From positions 1 through 24,690 of IMG/VR virus record IMGVR_UViG_3300025138_000333: DNA of 24,690 bases. The stretch is one strand, 5' to 3'. The notes under the pieces are model-generated. The model did no database searches. It worked only from the letters and a program-made list of their open reading frames with translations, and was not told the origin of the DNA. The stretch is from a virus. The position numbers were made by a program, and so were the translations under genes. Position 1 is the first letter of the stretch, and every line of letters starts with the position of its first letter. This document shows positions 1-21,721 of the stretch, piece by piece.

Positions 1-154
1 GTTTTTGACCATAGTCAAAAGATAAAGCTGTTACAGTTTCAAATTTATCAAGACATTTAAGTAATAATGTACTTGAATCCATACCACCTGAAAGTGATAC
101 TACTGCGTGTTTTGGACGTTGTGAGTCCTTAAAATTTAATTCCAATTGTGTCAT
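1..154 (-). CDS. queC: QueC, 7-cyano-7-deazaguanine (preQ0) synthase, N-terminal part
   Basis: The gene starts at 154 and runs off the left edge, leaving 51 codons. The visible protein has the N-type ATP pyrophosphatase P-loop SGGMDSS at about residues 20-26, then the QueC-typical ALSFDYGQK at about 43-51. In this family QueC converts 7-carboxy-7-deazaguanine to preQ0 using ATP and ammonia. Bacteria use preQ0 for queuosine; phages with a DpdA-type enzyme use it to modify DNA. A DpdA-like gene lies about 0.5 kb upstream on the same strand, so I infer a DNA-modification role. The C-terminal zinc site and any queD, queE or folE partners would lie beyond the window. SGG(M/Q)DS also occurs in related PP-loop enzymes (GuaA, TilS, ExsB), but FDYGQ directly after the second strand favours QueC. 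Confidence 0.88.
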   Translation of the reverse strand, partial: MTQLELNFKDSQRPKHAVVSLSGGMDSSTLLLKCLDKFETVTALSFDYGQK

Positions 155-161
155 TTTTATT

Positions 162-169
162 TATTTATA
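162..169 (-). promoter_or_regulatory. TATAAATA box before queC (possible T4-type late promoter)
   Basis: The minus strand reads TATAAATA just upstream of the queC start, identical to the -10 box of T4 late promoters. A second copy precedes the 90-aa membrane protein gene near 8190. The region is so AT-rich that chance matches are likely, and the box lies only about 8 bases from the ATG, too close for a normal leader. This is a weak call. Confidence 0.15.
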
Positions 170-201
170 TTTGCCAGGTATTTTAAGCGTATAGGCAAAC
201 G

Positions 202-426
202 CTATTGCATATCTCGTAATTTAAGTAGTTTTTCTTGAACAACCACTTTAAAATGGGTACCTTGTATTTTTGTACTTCCACCTTGTTTAAGAAGTTTTCT
301 AAATAATGCTTCTTCTCTATCAGCCCAAAATTCACTTAAAGCCAGAATTTCATCTTTACTTGCTGGTTTATCATTCTTATTAATAAAAATAGTTTGATTA
401 GATCTTATTGATTGTTTTTTTAACAT
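202..426 (-). CDS. hypothetical protein, 74 aa
   Basis: Not recognised. This is a small basic soluble protein with no membrane segment or cysteine. A helical-looking middle part, about residues 25-45, holds the run EFWADREEALFRKLLKQGG. The start is four bases after the stop of the upstream 64-aa gene, the tight spacing seen throughout the cluster, which supports a real gene. It lies between the DpdA-like gene and queC and probably shares their transcript, but nothing in its sequence links it to deazaguanine chemistry. About 50 bases separate it from queC, and they contain a weak inverted repeat (186-203). Confidence 0.7.
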   Translation of the reverse strand: MLKKQSIRSNQTIFINKNDKPASKDEILALSEFWADREEALFRKLLKQGGSTKIQGTHFKVVVQEKLLKLRDMQ

Positions 427-430
427 ATCT

Positions 431-625
431 TTATTCTTCTACAAATTCTGGTTCACTATAATCATCGATTGGTTTATCTCTTACTAGATCCCAATCTGCA
501 TTATCTATAATCTCTTGTTGGATATCTTCATCACCCGTTTTCCACTGTGCTAATTCTTTTTCTGTTAACACATATTCTTCCCATCTGTAATTTGCGTAAT
601 TTACATTTCTTGTTAGTTTTGCCAT
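431..625 (-). CDS. hypothetical acidic protein, 64 aa
   Basis: Not recognised. The small protein is strongly acidic in its C-terminal half (many D/E, ending EPEFVEE) and rich in tryptophan and tyrosine near the N-terminus. There is no signal peptide or membrane segment. The start follows the stop of the DpdA-like gene with a TAAAATG junction, so it is probably translationally coupled to it. Small acidic phage proteins are often inhibitors or DNA mimics, but that would be speculation here. Confidence 0.7.
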   Translation of the reverse strand: MAKLTRNVNYANYRWEEYVLTEKELAQWKTGDEDIQQEIIDNADWDLVRDKPIDDYSEPEFVEE

Positions 626-626
626 T

Positions 627-1418
627 TTATAAATTATTTATTTTTTTAAACATATCTAAATTGTAAGTTAAAAGATCATAATCTATCTGATCATCTAACA
701 TATAAAAGAAATCATTCATATTTGCTTTTGGTTTTTTATATAAACCATGATTTCTGTATTGTACATCTTCTAATGTTGCCATTACTGGGTTAGATGTGTC
801 AATAGATTCTATACAGTTAATATCTTCGTACCATCCAAATTCTTGAGGGACAGCACAACCTAATAAATGAATCCTATCATCTTGTCTTAACTCACCAGTT
901 CTTAATAAAGTTGAAATTACCATTAGTCTACCTAAAGCTTTTCCTAAATCTTTATTAGGGTGGGTGCAAATATCATTATAATAAGATGCACCATAAGAAA
1001 AACAAATTTTCCCATACCCTAAATCTTTATAGGCTCTAGCACATTGGGCTGCTTCATGTAAGGTTTTAGCTTGAACTACTGCTACTTTTTCAGTGTTTTT
1101 AGGAAAATCATAAAGTGTCCAAATTTCAGCATTTATAACGGATTCTGTGCAGTTTTCCCAAACATCTGGTACTATAAATTCATTAGGTTCTAATTCATTA
1201 ACCCAATGTATAAGACGCTCATGGTTATAGGCTTCACCTAATTCATGAAGTGAATTATCCATTATAATATAACGCCCTTGTTTTTTAGATTCTAAAAAAT
1301 ATTCTAAATAACCTGGTTCTTCATCCAATAAATGGGGAAGACAATAGTCATAATCATTAAATCGTCTACTATCATTTAATAGACATAGGGGTGTTTCGTG
1401 ACTTATTTTTATTGCCAT
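627..1418 (-). CDS. dpdA: DpdA-like / TGT-fold base-exchange enzyme for 7-deazaguanine DNA modification
   Basis: This 263-aa protein has the order of active-site blocks seen in tRNA-guanine transglycosylases and phage DpdA proteins. They are IIMDNSLHELG (D54, aligning with the first catalytic Asp), FIVPDV (D85, substrate-base Asp), VAVVQAKT (Q116, base contact), HLLGCAVPQE (184-193, glycine-rich loop) and ESIDTSNP (D207, candidate nucleophile). The TGT zinc cluster (CxCxxC...H) is absent and the protein is much shorter than tRNA enzymes (about 370-400 aa), as expected for phage DNA-acting relatives. Known members swap guanine in DNA for preQ0 or derivatives; partner QueC is encoded downstream at the window edge. 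A promoter-like site lies at 1438-1466. Family assignment rests on motifs read by eye. The exact base inserted and the target sequence cannot be told from the sequence. Confidence 0.72.
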   Translation of the reverse strand: MAIKISHETPLCLLNDSRRFNDYDYCLPHLLDEEPGYLEYFLESKKQGRYIIMDNSLHELGEAYNHERLIHWVNELEPNEFIVPDVWENCTESVINAEIWTLYDFPKNTEKVAVVQAKTLHEAAQCARAYKDLGYGKICFSYGASYYNDICTHPNKDLGKALGRLMVISTLLRTGELRQDDRIHLLGCAVPQEFGWYEDINCIESIDTSNPVMATLEDVQYRNHGLYKKPKANMNDFFYMLDDQIDYDLLTYNLDMFKKINNL

Positions 1419-1549: not shown

Positions 1550-2203
1550 TTAAAAATTTAAGGCTTCCGATATTACTGGAAGATTTGTTTTTAGTTGTTT
1601 TTTAATTTCTTTTGAAATTAATTGAATTTCTTTTTGAGCATGACTATCATCCCTTAATTCAAGAAAATGAATCCATGAACGAATTGAACCTGTCATTTGG
1701 ATTTTAGTTGTAGTTGCTAGTGGTAAAACCATTCTTGCTTGCTCTCTAGCAATCCCCGCTTTTAATAAATCATTATATAATTCATGAGTAACTCTAAAAT
1801 GCTTTTTAATTACATCACTAGCTTTATCATTCATAAAAACATCATCTTCGTACATAATAGGATCAATAATATCAGTTGAACTTTGTCTATTATCCTCACA
1901 TTGAGCTCTCAACTCAATATTTTCAAACATCTCATCTAACTGATTAACATCTTGATATCGTTGACTAAACTCTTGAAAAGAAAACGAACGGTGACGGATG
2001 AGCTGAATTCCGATTGCTTTGGAAGTTTCAATCTCGAACGTCGCGTGACTATGTTCAAACGGCGACCAGTGCTTGTGGCGTACAAGGTATTTGAGAAGGC
2101 CTGCTGCATTAGTTTTCTTATCCTTACGTGAACTAGATACACGTGCAATCTCCACAATATGCTCTTCAGCATTAGGAGTAATATTTAATAGTTTTACTTG
2201 CAT
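1550..2203 (-). CDS. thyX: ThyX, flavin-dependent thymidylate synthase
   Basis: The 217-aa protein carries the diagnostic ThyX motif RHRx7S at residues 70-80 (RHRSFSFQEFS). This is followed by QRYQ and, near residue 150, the helix AREQARMVLPLATTTK, where family members bind dUMP and FAD. HWSPFEH at about 45-51 is also typical. The enzyme forms dTMP from dUMP using methylenetetrahydrofolate, NADPH and FAD, and works as a homotetramer. With the NrdAB genes it supplies dNTPs during infection. The length matches the family (about 210-250 aa). The start overlaps the end of the upstream 166-aa gene by 32 bases. Bases about 1981-2100, coding for residues about 35-74, are clearly more GC-rich than the surroundings. 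Confidence 0.95.
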   Translation of the reverse strand: MQVKLLNITPNAEEHIVEIARVSSSRKDKKTNAAGLLKYLVRHKHWSPFEHSHATFEIETSKAIGIQLIRHRSFSFQEFSQRYQDVNQLDEMFENIELRAQCEDNRQSSTDIIDPIMYEDDVFMNDKASDVIKKHFRVTHELYNDLLKAGIAREQARMVLPLATTTKIQMTGSIRSWIHFLELRDDSHAQKEIQLISKEIKKQLKTNLPVISEALNF

Positions 2204-2672
2204 TTAATTTGTTTAAAGTGTCTATGTTATAATTTTTAATCTTTGCTATATGAAAATACAACTCTTCAGTAGTACCCCCAAACTGTTCCATAATATCTTG
2301 AACTTCTTGTTTACTAATTTTAAATACTTTACCTAATTTTTGTTTTAAATCATCCATCCTTTCATACTCGGTTTTCATACCATCTTCAAACAATTTATTA
2401 TAACGTTTCCTAGCACGTAACTCAATTTCAAGATAAAGTCTATCTTGCTCTGGTTCTCGACCTTGGTAACTATCAATAAATTCTTTTTGTTCATCCTTCA
2501 TCCACTCTAACTCCCATTCTGCTTGTTGGAAGTATTCGGGATATTCAAAATCTCCATTTCTAATTTTATCTAAAAGTGAAAATTTATAAGGTAAAGATTT
2601 ATGAGTTCTAAAACGTCTCCACCAATAAAAGGGTAAAGCTCTTCTCCCACTTGGTTTTCTAGGAGTTTTCAT
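2172..2672 (-). CDS. hypothetical charged helical protein, 166 aa
   Basis: Not recognised. The frame is open further upstream, but I place the start at 2672 (MKTPRKPSGRR), which follows the stop of the SET-domain gene with one base between (TAATATG). An upstream start at 2747 would overlap that gene by 74 bases. The N-terminus is very basic with a WWRRFR cluster. The rest is predicted helical, with alternating E/K/R-rich stretches and no membrane segment. The N-terminus suggests nucleic-acid binding, but this is only inference. It overlaps the thyX start by 32 bases, indicating one transcript. Confidence 0.7.
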   Translation of the reverse strand: MKTPRKPSGRRALPFYWWRRFRTHKSLPYKFSLLDKIRNGDFEYPEYFQQAEWELEWMKDEQKEFIDSYQGREPEQDRLYLEIELRARKRYNKLFEDGMKTEYERMDDLKQKLGKVFKISKQEVQDIMEQFGGTTEELYFHIAKIKNYNIDTLNKLNASKTIKYYS

Positions 2673-2673
2673 A

Positions 2674-3069
2674 TTATACTGGGGATTTATTTTTAGATGG
2701 CCAATAATCATCTCCATAATAAGTGCATATTTCTTCTCCGATTTCAATATTTTTTATAGCAATAAAGTCAAAGTGATAAGAAATATCTTTAGTATTATCC
2801 CACATTGCATTGCTATTATCATTACTATGGTTGTATATACAACCAAAACCTAAAGGTAATACGTGTTCTGCTCCATCTTCCATACTCCTACCTCTAGGAT
2901 AATTAAATACATAATCCATTAAAGTATCATTAACATGGTCTTTTGGACTACCTGTTTTTATACAATAGCACCTTTCAATAAGTTCCCCCTCTTTAATAGG
3001 TGTGTCTGTAAAAACTCCATAACCTTTTTTATCAGTCCACTTTACATATAAATTATTTGGAACTTTCAT
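2674..3069 (-). CDS. SET-domain protein, putative protein-lysine methyltransferase
   Basis: The 131-aa protein is essentially a minimal SET domain. Near the N-terminus is KGYGVFTDTPIKEGELIE (typical G-x-G opening strand). In the middle is FGCIYNHSNDNSNAMW (the NHS motif that binds S-adenosylmethionine). The end is FIAIKNIEIGEEICTYYGDDYW, with the GEE(I)xxxYG closing motif and the catalytic-type tyrosines. SET enzymes transfer methyl groups from SAM to lysines of proteins. Compact versions occur in viruses, such as chlorovirus vSET. No pre-SET or post-SET cysteines are present. I chose the start at 3069, one base after the preceding stop (TGATATG); an ATG at 3087 would overlap the upstream gene. 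Its target (host RNA polymerase, nucleoid or ribosomal protein) cannot be inferred. Confidence 0.85.
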   Translation of the reverse strand: MKVPNNLYVKWTDKKGYGVFTDTPIKEGELIERCYCIKTGSPKDHVNDTLMDYVFNYPRGRSMEDGAEHVLPLGFGCIYNHSNDNSNAMWDNTKDISYHFDFIAIKNIEIGEEICTYYGDDYWPSKNKSPV

Positions 3070-3070
3070 A

Positions 3071-3208
3071 TCAGAATGGTAAATCATCTTCTTCCCCTTC
3101 TTCAGTAAGGAAAATTCCTGGGTTTTCTAATAGTTCTTCTTGGAGTTGGTTTATTAGTTCTTGTTCTAATTCCCACTGATCTGCTAATACTTCAATGTCT
3201 ATAAACAT
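3071..3208 (-). CDS. 45-aa acidic microprotein with SSB-like C-terminal tip DDLPF
   Basis: The short ORF encodes a very acidic, leucine/glutamate-rich helix (about residues 5-28) followed by an acidic tail ending in EEDDLPF. The last residues match the C-terminal tip of this phage's own gp32-like SSB (SDDLPF), the type of peptide by which SSB recruits replication proteins. Translation runs ATG to TGA, and the following SET gene starts one base after the stop, the spacing seen for neighbouring real genes. I infer it is expressed and could compete for SSB-tip binding partners. The alternative is a chance acidic terminus. Confidence 0.6.
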   Translation of the reverse strand: MFIDIEVLADQWELEQELINQLQEELLENPGIFLTEEGEEDDLPF

Positions 3209-18111: not shown

Positions 18112-18791
18112 TATCCTATTAAGGCATTTGCAAGTGGGGTTCTATAATATTTTAACCAATTACCTCTTAAAAATTCATTTAACCCTATTACTTTATTTCT
18201 TCTTTCTGCTAATGTTATAATATTTTTATTAGTAGTAGCTACGTAATTTTCACTCCCTACTAAAGCCCATTGTAAAGTTACTAATTTGTAAGGTTGCCAT
18301 AACCACTCTCCACTTCTACTTTCAAGTTTATCAAATGTATCTGAGGATATTTCAAGCCAAACTGGTTGGTTGGCTTTAACACAGAAGTATCTAGTAAAAC
18401 TACCAATACTATAGTCTTCTTCTGTTGGGGAAGGATATTCCTGTGTAGGCATATTTATTAAGGTTGATTTTGATAAATCTACTTTTTGTAAAGTAGCATA
18501 TTTTACTACCATACTTTCTGAGTATCCTGGTGTGTTAATATCTTCAAATATAGTAGGTGCATCACTATAAGCTATTGAATTTTGGGGTTGCTCAACAAGA
18601 GGAATTGAATTTATATCTTCTACTAATTCTAATTCTTCATTAGGTGGGTCATTTTGGGTTTTACCTGTAAAGTATTTACCTTCAAAGGTTTTGTAGTAAA
18701 ATCCCGTATAAACTTCTTTATTTGATTTATATACTAATGAGTTATCATTACTATATTGGTTGGTTAATATTCTACTTTTTGGTATATACAT
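18111..18791 (-). CDS. putative structural (tail/baseplate-associated) protein, 226 aa
   Basis: Not recognised by family. The frame is open to 18830, but I start at 18791 (MYIPKSRILTNQYSN), two bases after the stop of the 975-aa gene. The protein is soluble, rich in T, N, Y and P, with beta-strand character and no TM helix, as in phage appendage proteins. The block EVYTGFYYKTFEGKYFTGKT is a tyrosine-rich beta segment. Placement directly after the baseplate genes suggests a virion component such as a connector to tail fibres. Confidence 0.6.
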   Translation of the reverse strand: MYIPKSRILTNQYSNDNSLVYKSNKEVYTGFYYKTFEGKYFTGKTQNDPPNEELELVEDINSIPLVEQPQNSIAYSDAPTIFEDINTPGYSESMVVKYATLQKVDLSKSTLINMPTQEYPSPTEEDYSIGSFTRYFCVKANQPVWLEISSDTFDKLESRSGEWLWQPYKLVTLQWALVGSENYVATTNKNIITLAERRNKVIGLNEFLRGNWLKYYRTPLANALIG

Positions 18792-18793
18792 AA

Positions 18794-21721
18794 TTATGTT
18801 GCGGGTGCTGTAAATATTAAATATGTCCAATTATCCCCTACCCTAGATCTATATGGGAAGTCTGTATTGTAATTTGATTTTGTAGATGTTGTCCATCCAA
18901 CAGAGTTAATAGTCCCAACATAAACTTGTGTGTGGCCATATTTTACATGGGATTCTTGTGTAGGACCATTATTACAATAATATGCTACTACGTCTCCATA
19001 ACCCCAAGTACGAGTAGATAAATCCGATAATAGTTGAGTTTTAGTAACAACAGATTGTGTTTTAGTATATCCTAAAGCTGTTAAGTTATTATAATATTCT
19101 TGGTTATTGTTAGCATTACCACCTGCTGCTAATTGTCTTTTTTCTGGTGCATTACCACGTAAATATCTCATGTAATTTAAAGCTAAATTATAAGAATATC
19201 TAGCACACATCCCACTTACTTCTCCATCTCTACCAAATACATAATTGTAAGAGGCTTGCATAGCATTAAATCTTTCAACTGATTCTGGATCATCAGATGC
19301 TGGTGCCTCATTTGTTGATAAAGGTAATGAATTACCTTGAGCTGATGATTGTTGGGATGTTGCTGATGATACTAATTGACTGGGTCTTGCAGGTGCCCCT
19401 AAAGTTTCGGCGGCTACACTTTGAGTAGTTAACTCTGTAATCCAAGCTGATGTATCTATTTTGTGGTTTATACCTGTAATTTGTAAATCAACCCCATCAT
19501 TAGTATATGTAGGTGGTAAAATATCATCAGTCATTAAAAATTTCTGATATAATTTCATACCTGAAAGTCCATCCATTTCAAGTTGGAAGTTAAATGGTAG
19601 AAAGAAAGGTGCTTGTATTTGGTTATCTTTAGTTAATTTTCCTACTAATAAAGAAGCATGGGTTTTATTGTGACTTACTAAAGAACCTATATTATCATTT
19701 AAAAATTTTAAGCTTGTATCCCCATAAATTTTTAAAAATAAACTTGCACCTTCTTCATTAGTTGCATTTATATTATCATCAAAATTGGTTTTTATTGTTA
19801 CTTCATCTACTTCATCTTCATTAGTTGGAGTTTTTTTAGGGTAAATACTTTCTTTTACTTTTATAATCCTATCTGCTAACCCCATATTATAGTTTGAAAA
19901 CGAAGTTGCATTTTCAGATAATTGATTTCCATTACCTTGGGCCCCAATAGATATCATAGTAGCAAAATTTGAAGGAATTGAAGCATTTAAACTTACATTT
20001 CTAATAAAACTTCCCTCAACTCCAGGTTTTACACCATACACATTAAACCTGGTGTACTCACTTGTTGGGGTATCTGGTGTTCTTCTTTGGGGAATATTTT
20101 CATTAAATATTAACTTTAAACCATCATCAGATAATTTAATTTTAAATTCATTTATATCTCCCAATGCTGTTATTAACCCATTATTAATACTTTTAAGATA
20201 ATTAATAACATTAATATTACCTTTTTCATCAGAGGCATCTACTAAACAAGTAGCTAAAAAATTAACATTTATCATGATATTACCTACTCTACCTAAATAA
20301 GTTTGATATTCCCAAGCTGTTGCCGAGACAACTTCATTTATTTTTGTTTGGGGTAGAGATACACCATCTCCTATATTAGTATTTGAATAAGGAATTATAC
20401 ATATTCTAGGATCTGCTGAAAATTGTCCAGGTACTTTGAATATTACATTTTCATCTTTATCGAGGTTTTTAAAATCCATATCAAAAACAACCAAAGGCGT
20501 ATCAGTACTATTATCATATAGTAGAATTTTTGATTGTAGGTAAGCTAAAAAAGCTCCATATTTTATATAAACTTGGGGTGATTGGTTTTCTTCTATATCT
20601 GCCGTTGTTCCCGGGATTGTTAGTAGTCCTTTAGAGAATATTACTGATGATGGGGTTTCAGGTTTTCCATCTTCATCTATACCTCTATATTCTACAAGCT
20701 CATAATCTAAAAGTTGTAATTGAGGATCTGAAACTTGAGCAGCTTGGTATATACCATATAATTCTCTATTTACTATTGTTTTATTTGCATTTGCTACTAA
20801 GGGGGGTTGTTGTGTAGGGTCTGGATCTGATGTCCATAATTTTTTCCACCATCCCCTTGTATCTGTTTTAATTTCTATTAAAGAAGGGTCTGTAATATTA
20901 CACTTTAAGGCTGAGATAACATCTCCTAAGGATGTTAATTGAACTTGACAATCATAGCTACCATCACTATTAAATTGCCAATTAAAATTACTTATTTGAC
21001 CAAAAAAAGCTTCATAATTATAATCATAAGTTTCTCTAGCCGTTTTAATAGATTGATAAATTTCGTACTGGTTTGTTCCTTCATCAGGTGAAAGAAATTT
21101 AGACATAGGTTCTGTTAAGAAACTATCCATAGATTTTAGATTTTGTTCATTATCTAACCACACAGAATGTCCAAATTCCATTAATAAAGTATATCCTGGT
21201 CTTAAATAGAGTATATCAATTAATTGAAATTGAGCCTTACTAAAGCATTTTATATTAATATTACACTTAGCTAAAGCTCCATTATTGTAGTATGTTACAT
21301 CGGCTGTTGTAATACCAGGCATAGGAACATATCCTCTTTCTGATGTACCTCCCCACCCATAAGCACCATTAAAAACATTACTACCATCATTTAAACCAAA
21401 TTTTAATTTTCCTGGATTTGAACCTTCATCAAAATCTGCTGACATTACTCCTCCTTGAAGTATTATATTTTTTGCTAAGTAATATCCATCCCATGTATCT
21501 ACAGGATATCCTAAATTTTTTAATTGTTTAGGTACTCCTTTTAGGGGGCTATAAAATTCTAAATCAACTGAACTTGCTAGTCTTAAAAATGGGGTTTTTG
21601 TATTATAATATTGAAGATCTTTAGAAGGAATATTAGTATATTTTCCTAAAGATTTTTGTCTTGTTTCTATTTGAGTTTTTACACCTTGATCAAAAGGGGT
21701 TCCTGTAAATGATTGACCCAT
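18794..21721 (-). CDS. baseplate hub-like protein with C-terminal CHAP-like lysin domain, 975 aa
   Basis: The large protein starts MGQSFTGTPFDQGVKTQIE. The body is beta-rich with blocks typical of tail hub proteins: YLRPGYTLLMEFGHSVW around residue 180, and DLQITGINHKIDTSAWITEL around 745, the 'G-x-x-H-x-I-x-x-x-x-W' strand seen near the end of hub domains. A Ser/Gln/Ala-rich linker (about 770-805) leads to a C-terminal domain with C839 (GMCARYSYNLA) and H930 (KYGHTQVYVG), the Cys/His pair of CHAP/NlpC peptidoglycan amidases. It would sit at the tail tip and cut the cell wall during DNA injection, like T4 gp5 does with a different enzyme fold. Hub identity is inferred from motifs and position. 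Confidence 0.72.
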   Translation of the reverse strand: MGQSFTGTPFDQGVKTQIETRQKSLGKYTNIPSKDLQYYNTKTPFLRLASSVDLEFYSPLKGVPKQLKNLGYPVDTWDGYYLAKNIILQGGVMSADFDEGSNPGKLKFGLNDGSNVFNGAYGWGGTSERGYVPMPGITTADVTYYNNGALAKCNINIKCFSKAQFQLIDILYLRPGYTLLMEFGHSVWLDNEQNLKSMDSFLTEPMSKFLSPDEGTNQYEIYQSIKTARETYDYNYEAFFGQISNFNWQFNSDGSYDCQVQLTSLGDVISALKCNITDPSLIEIKTDTRGWWKKLWTSDPDPTQQPPLVANANKTIVNRELYGIYQAAQVSDPQLQLLDYELVEYRGIDEDGKPETPSSVIFSKGLLTIPGTTADIEENQSPQVYIKYGAFLAYLQSKILLYDNSTDTPLVVFDMDFKNLDKDENVIFKVPGQFSADPRICIIPYSNTNIGDGVSLPQTKINEVVSATAWEYQTYLGRVGNIMINVNFLATCLVDASDEKGNINVINYLKSINNGLITALGDINEFKIKLSDDGLKLIFNENIPQRRTPDTPTSEYTRFNVYGVKPGVEGSFIRNVSLNASIPSNFATMISIGAQGNGNQLSENATSFSNYNMGLADRIIKVKESIYPKKTPTNEDEVDEVTIKTNFDDNINATNEEGASLFLKIYGDTSLKFLNDNIGSLVSHNKTHASLLVGKLTKDNQIQAPFFLPFNFQLEMDGLSGMKLYQKFLMTDDILPPTYTNDGVDLQITGINHKIDTSAWITELTTQSVAAETLGAPARPSQLVSSATSQQSSAQGNSLPLSTNEAPASDDPESVERFNAMQASYNYVFGRDGEVSGMCARYSYNLALNYMRYLRGNAPEKRQLAAGGNANNNQEYYNNLTALGYTKTQSVVTKTQLLSDLSTRTWGYGDVVAYYCNNGPTQESHVKYGHTQVYVGTINSVGWTTSTKSNYNTDFPYRSRVGDNWTYLIFTAPAT

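Follow-up and report, generated by a model that had tools for sequence, protein, structure and literature searches.

A 24,690-base fragment of virus DNA (the window) very probably carries one end of a DpdA-type 7-deazaguanine cluster, with dPreQ0 as the predicted base, proposed recycling of the released guanine and a QueC that presumably works without zinc. The cluster type is already known. Two apparently unreported features of its relatives go beyond it: a phosphoribosyltransferase (PRTase) encoded among the pathway genes and a QueC lacking its zinc ligands. The original prediction was 7-deazaguanine hypermodification of the phage DNA, and this reading is supported by the fold and active site of a transglycosylase (TGT), by its linkage to QueC and by the occurrence of queD, queE and folE in relatives. 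The source is an uncultured virus of bacteria, probably marine. The window would come from a T4-like phage and form the left portion of its genome, with the remaining cluster genes lying beyond the contig end.

All ORFs of the system are on the minus strand (Table 1), and the four that had been predicted are all present where they were placed. The order in the direction of transcription is ThyX, a 58-aa ORF, the 263-aa transglycosylase, ORFs of 64 and 74 aa (s64 and s74) and QueC, whose frame is open at the contig end with 51 aa visible. ThyX is found near dpdA in only 17 of 113 loci, and we regard it as a neighbor that is not counted in the system. The commonest upstream neighbor of dpdA among relatives is a 181-aa protein, for which family searches gave no match. 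Homologs of it occur in 70 of the 113 loci, most of them 0.4-4 kb before dpdA, and it is more frequent than s64 or s74. A phage-encoded SET-domain gene overlaps the frame of the gene for the 181-aa protein.

Table 1. Features in the left part of the window
Feature	Position	Strand	Basis
QueC N-terminus, residues 1-51 (SGGMDSS P-loop, FDYGQK)	2..154	-	PF06508, phrog_1550, identity to QueC of relative L002
Small ORF s74, 74 aa, lineage-specific	202..426	-	dN/dS, presence in related loci
Small ORF s64, 64 aa, lineage-specific	431..625	-	dN/dS, presence in related loci
DpdA-type guanine transglycosylase, 263 aa (CP220/immuto group)	627..1418	-	Fold match, conserved active site
ThyX thymidylate synthase, dpdA upstream neighbor	1550..2203	-	PF02511, E 2.6e-51
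181-aa protein, dpdA upstream neighbor	2172..2714	-	Homologs near dpdA in relatives
SET-domain protein	2674-3087	-	PF00856, E 2.9e-11, above cut-off

Searches of Pfam and NCBIfam with the 263-aa protein returned no significant match, and its best PHROG (19058, E 8e-42) is annotated as "unknown function". Sequence searches of the PDB that used the single protein or a narrow alignment found no TGT. The profile comparison with DpdA that had been suggested as a check finds the bacterial DpdA structure 7ui4 (E 3.9e-4) when a deep alignment of the family is used; designed TIM barrels rank above 7ui4 in this search, through repeat-driven matches. When a profile of the DpdA alignment was compared with individual actinophage proteins, the match as a whole lacked significance, although the first two Asp motifs were aligned. 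Sequence comparison by itself points only weakly to DpdA.

We built an AF2 model of the protein from 21 relatives (mean pLDDT 87.8), and the 50 best Foldseek matches shown in the PDB are all TGT or bacterial DpdA. The top TGT match is 2pot (E 1.1e-7), and the DpdA structure 7ui4 (E 6.9e-6) has the best rmsd, 4.6. TM-scores to TGT are moderate (0.55-0.63). In the BFVD viral library, the model matches the phiST protein M4SLA5 (E 6e-16). An alignment of 31 relatives, of 20-87% identity, has D54, N55, D85, R164, H184, L186, G187 and D207 invariant and Q116 nearly so (>90%), and the protein contains the loop H-L-L-G-C-x-V-P-Q-E. Based on motif order and context, we take D54, D85, Q116, G187 and D207 to correspond to D102, D156, Q203, G230 and D280 of TGT in Zymomonas numbering. 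As modeled, the protein has the TGT (beta/alpha)8 fold with a conserved active site. The TGT-type residues pointed out in the original prediction (D54, D85, Q116, the loop and D207) are present and conserved, and the non-TGT fold named there as contrary evidence was not found, since the fold is that of TGT and a DpdA structure is matched.

Homologs of the transglycosylase occur in 32 of 50,697 phage records. Their sources are Flavobacterium phage vB_FspM_immuto (Immutovirus, MW353176; hereafter immuto), Campylobacter phages such as CP220, Bacillus phages of the BSP7 type, Cellulophaga phages of the phiST type and a few more. The immuto DpdA and CP220 gp056 are 36-37% identical to the window's protein over 98% (E about 1e-38), which belongs, by this measure, to the CP220/immuto transglycosylase group. 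The immuto homolog is annotated as DpdA and is located beside QueD, QueE, FolE and QueF, while those of the CP220-type phages are annotated as "hypothetical". Que or FolE genes are found near the homolog in immuto, BSP7, phiST and MA9V-3. In the Campylobacter phages, QueC is present in the genome, away from the DpdA homolog. A 2023 NAR paper reportedly gave the Campylobacter-phage enzyme, which we take to be CP220 gp056, the name DpdA3 and linked it to complete replacement of G. This transglycosylase group went unrecognized in Hutinet 2019, and no DpdA was known that year for CP220 or CPt10 (PMC6884629). Among phages with measured DNA, these two hold the nearest relatives of the window's transglycosylase, and in both, 100% of dG is replaced by dADG (PMC8306585).

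Scanning IMG/VR yielded 32 close loci, and an alignment-based search at least 570 relatives among the matches listed. The DpdA proteins of relatives are up to 89% identical to that of the window. Only 11 MAG contigs emerged from the genome scan for relatives. Given that they are so few and that several are of mixed taxonomy, they are probably binned phage DNA, and we rejected a cellular origin.

A near-complete relative (G001, 163,571 bases; locus L002) has the gene order dpdA, 64-aa ORF, 74-aa ORF, queC, transmembrane (TM) protein, thioredoxin, queD, queE, SNase, thioesterase, PRTase, 490-aa protein, folE, PRA-PH/MazG-like, 184-aa protein and DNA polymerase B in two ORFs. The halves of this split B-family polymerase are at 18718-20400 and 20397-20789 of L002, and several relatives have an s74-type small gene between them. 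In G001 (L038-L046), 199 of 201 called genes are on one strand, which is unusual for a T4-like genome. The QueE of L002 (13113-13886, plus strand) has a widened radical-SAM motif, CX3CX7C (GCTHRCYFGEGGWCDSW) as opposed to CX3CX2C, and the widened form also occurs in immuto (L034) and phiST (L054).

Across 103 related loci, with only those long enough counted for each gene, dpdA is followed by QueC in 63 of 63, QueD in 55 of 56, QueE in 52 of 52 and FolE in 35 of 39. In 23 of 25 loci, FolE is followed by a PRA-PH/MazG-like gene, 76% identical to that of immuto. A search for QueF in 12 related records gave none, with immuto as a positive control that did give QueF. Formyltransferase and HD/kinase relatives were also sought in related loci and are rare. 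Hence, leftward extension, performed in relatives, produced the anticipated queD, queE and folE, but not, in those 12 records, the reductase QueF. Because QueC, QueD, QueE and FolE follow dpdA in relatives, a complete preQ0 pathway is likely for the window phage; the placement of queD, queE, folE and the PRTase gene rests on these relatives, and the window shows the 51 aa of QueC. In phages CAjan and Rosebush, FolE, QueD, QueE, QueC and DpdA without further enzymes give dPreQ0 (PMC6884629). With the same five-gene set and no QueF in those records, dPreQ0 is, by analogy, our prediction for the DNA base.

The two small ORFs between the transglycosylase and QueC had been proposed as possible new accessory factors. 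Both are under purifying selection relative to L002 (dN/dS about 0.21 for s64 and about 0.13 for s74). We found s64 in 41 of the 103 related loci, in variable positions that include upstream of dpdA, and its immuto homolog (L047, 7156-7353) is near queC, not dpdA. In 47 of the 103 there is an s74, often at another place, such as 3-5 kb (and up to 5.6 kb) before dpdA or in the gap between the two polymerase ORFs. Neither ORF has a family match. The predicted structure of s64 is a beta-beta-alpha-alpha-beta mini-domain (pLDDT 79), and a fold search with it gave no structural match. Judging by this conservation and distribution, s64 and s74 are real genes that are lineage-specific and mobile. Since neither ORF is present in 47 of 88 dpdA-queC intervals, we rejected a core accessory role. 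Thus, the genes stand, but not their proposed function, in view of their presence in less than half of loci, variable position and lack of a family; they may take part in DNA modification, but nothing indicates it.

A guanine-type PRTase is encoded in relatives between queE and folE, or just 3′ of folE. In L002, it is an HGPRT (TIGR01203, 149.2 bits, where the cut-off is 150), while other relatives have a shorter XGPRT-like protein (NF006613, E to 5e-17, far below the model cut-off). The PRPP loop is present in 34 of 35 HGPRT and all 19 XGPRT-like proteins. QueE and FolE are both present in 47 loci, of which 45 encode a PRTase: 31 have HGPRT, 14 the XGPRT-like protein, none both and two neither. 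HGPRT is the type in the window's nearest relatives. The PRTase type changes 10 times along a tree built from 89 DpdA proteins, and at least 7 of these changes are forced by well-supported branches. It looks like one guanine PRTase has repeatedly been replaced by the other, and this repeated replacement along the DpdA tree suggests that the activity is needed. Guanine recycling is not obligatory, since a PF00156 PRTase is missing from CP220, CPt10, BSP7 and MA9V-3. CAjan, phiSM, the Rosebush group and Sonali are likewise without one.

Among IMG/VR relatives of the two enzymes, preQ0 genes are located within 8 kb in 69 of 69 cases for HGPRT and in 66 of 80 for XGPRT. In reference phages, each of the two queries matches 18 of 50,697 records. 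The XGPRT matches are in immuto, the phiST group, FolE fusions of the Bhz54 type, a cyanophage (gene order QueE-XGPRT-QueD-FolE) and Brevundimonas phages (XGPRT beside FolE in the one inspected). Stenotrophomonas phage Bhz54 has the order QueE, QueC, QueD, PRTase-FolE and a TGT-annotated gene. Its fusion gene (L279, OR797041, 5938-6831) is annotated only as GTP cyclohydrolase, and the N-terminal ~100 aa of the product match an XGPRT profile (E 1e-14). Judged solely by title and length, several HGPRT matches (OR847266, OR849405, OR845007 and others) resemble bacterial contigs that had been entered as phages.

The gene context suggests that the PRTase, whose predicted substrate is guanine, recycles the guanine released by base exchange. 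We met no description of such a guanine-recycling PRTase in a literature search, which missed key papers. A different explanation is that the enzyme serves general purine salvage, or supplies GTP from host guanine, and does not recycle the exchanged base. Salvage is the ordinary role of HGPRT and XGPRT, and the Bhz54 fusion shows coupling to GTP supply only. However, PRTases are rare in reference phages, the XGPRT matches are nearly all in phages with FolE or Que genes, and general salvage would give no reason for preQ0 genes to be nearby in 69/69 and 66/80 loci. We therefore consider salvage somewhat unlikely and favor recycling.

The QueC of the window matches PF06508 (E 1.8e-9, above cut-off), the QueC-like phrog_1550 (E 7e-12) and an NCBIfam model. 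Its residues 1-51 are 98% identical to the QueC of L002, which is a zinc-less one. The matches bear out the QueC N-terminus originally recognized from SGGMDSS and FDYGQ. Only the SGGMDSS and YGQ motifs are visible in the window, and the C-terminal zinc region is off the contig. Among 91 QueC proteins of related loci, the motifs SGGxDS, YGQxHxxE, VPxRN and YPDC are kept in 86-91. In canonical QueC, the zinc motif reads C(x)8CxxCxxC, and PMC13329287 describes zinc as a requirement for function. S-D-S-S replaces the four cysteines in 84 of the 91 proteins, and three others are truncated at a contig end and show S or S-D where they can still be read. The four that keep C-C-C-C are all distant (L129, L130, CPt10 and BSP7). 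The equivalent of Tyr189, beside the first cysteine position, is kept in all.

QueF reduces the nitrile preQ0. Since immuto has a zinc-less QueC together with QueF, which needs the nitrile, the zinc-less QueC probably still makes preQ0. Alternatively, the QueC of this lineage could stop at the amide (ADG), or act as a ligase like the defense proteins QatC and Cap9. The replacement of all four cysteines in 84/91 proteins, when zinc is described as required (PMC13329287), is consistent with a changed product. On the other hand, the signature motifs (86-91/91) and the essential Tyr are kept, immuto pairs this kind of QueC with QueF, and CPt10, whose DNA has dADG, keeps the zinc motif. We find a changed product unlikely. 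The last two observations also led us to reject zinc loss as a marker of an ADG product. The QueC of Bhz54 (L279, 4651-5502) has a degenerate zinc motif (THTSYDG...GHDHATLLR), apparently a second, independent loss judging by its sequence.

The joint reading, namely a recurrent guanine-recycling arm (two analogous PRTase families and one FolE fusion lineage) combined with a zinc-free QueC, is in our view an even call.

In the mechanism that we propose, FolE, QueD, QueE and QueC, a set ascribed to the window phage from its relatives, would convert GTP to preQ0. By homology to TGT, the 263-aa protein would remove guanine from DNA via a glycosyl-enzyme intermediate at Asp207 and insert a 7-deazaguanine base, with Asp54 as the probable general acid/base and Asp85, Gln116 and Gly187 reading the base. 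The resulting dPreQ0 could be at most or all G positions, as with the complete replacement in CP220. The cluster's HGPRT or XGPRT would turn the released guanine into GMP, and thence GTP for FolE, and the QueC without the four zinc cysteines presumably works zinc-free. The modified DNA would resist host nucleases. Such resistance is known for other 7-deazaguanine phages.

The main rival to this mechanism is a pre-replicative mononucleotide route in the style of T4 hydroxymethylcytosine, whereby a DpdA-like exchange would occur on dGMP or dGTP, a kinase and the polymerase would incorporate the product, and the MazG-like protein would remove dGTP. Kinase-like genes adjoin distant members (AAA_28 in CP220 and immuto, AAA_18 in phiST and MA9V-3), a PRA-PH/MazG-like gene follows FolE in the 23/25 loci noted above, and DNA polymerase genes are near the cluster. 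Moreover, replacement in CP220 is complete, and modified dGTP has been put forward for phages of Campylobacter (PMC6884629). However, in the window's nearest relative, the kinase homolog is ~68 kb from dpdA, and MazG-like and kinase genes are common among phages generally. To our knowledge, every protein of the TGT fold whose substrate has been tested acts on a polymer, which also counts against this route. We regard the pre-replicative route as quite unlikely, and prefer base exchange in DNA. That the 263-aa protein is a TIM-barrel protein without transglycosylase activity, or acts on tRNA, could explain its non-recognition by Pfam and NCBIfam and its TM-scores to TGT (0.55-0.63), but is highly improbable given active-site residues that are invariant over a very diverse set, the constant linkage of dpdA to queC, and the modified DNA of CP220 and CPt10, which have no other known DpdA (PMC6884629, PMC8306585).

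Among known systems, immuto has in common with the cluster the DpdA group (37%), a zinc-less QueC (69%), QueD, QueE, FolE, an XGPRT-like PRTase, the PRA-PH/MazG-like protein (76%) and an s64 homolog. Beside its dpdA it also has QueF and a formyltransferase, and it differs in gene order, with queC 15 kb from dpdA. Campylobacter phages CP220 and CPt10 share the DpdA homolog (gp056, 36-37%) and QueC, but CPt10 QueC keeps the zinc motif, both genomes are without the PRTase, and their genes are dispersed. The dPreQ0 phages CAjan and Rosebush, along with bacterial DpdA (7ui4), have the FolE-QueD-QueE-QueC-DpdA pathway and the TGT fold in common with it. By contrast, their DpdA sequences are unrelated at the BLAST level, the QueC of the two phages keeps the zinc motif, and CAjan and a Rosebush-group record are without a PF00156 PRTase. 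In siphophages of the Bhz54 type, which infect Stenotrophomonas and Pseudomonas, a guanine PRTase is likewise tied to the preQ0 pathway, there as a PRTase-FolE fusion, and QueC has a degenerate zinc motif. These phages have a different TGT-annotated protein and small genomes.

Our analysis assigns at least 570 uncultured IMG/VR relatives to a transglycosylase group that is tied to complete replacement of guanine, and no more radical form of 7-deazaguanine DNA is known. Should the recycling arm be true, the release of guanine in base exchange would be a measurable metabolic load, and the presence of the PRTase may predict heavily modified genomes. If QueC proves to be zinc-free, a zinc site thought essential would be dispensable, and such enzymes may be of use for making preQ0 and preQ0-labelled DNA.
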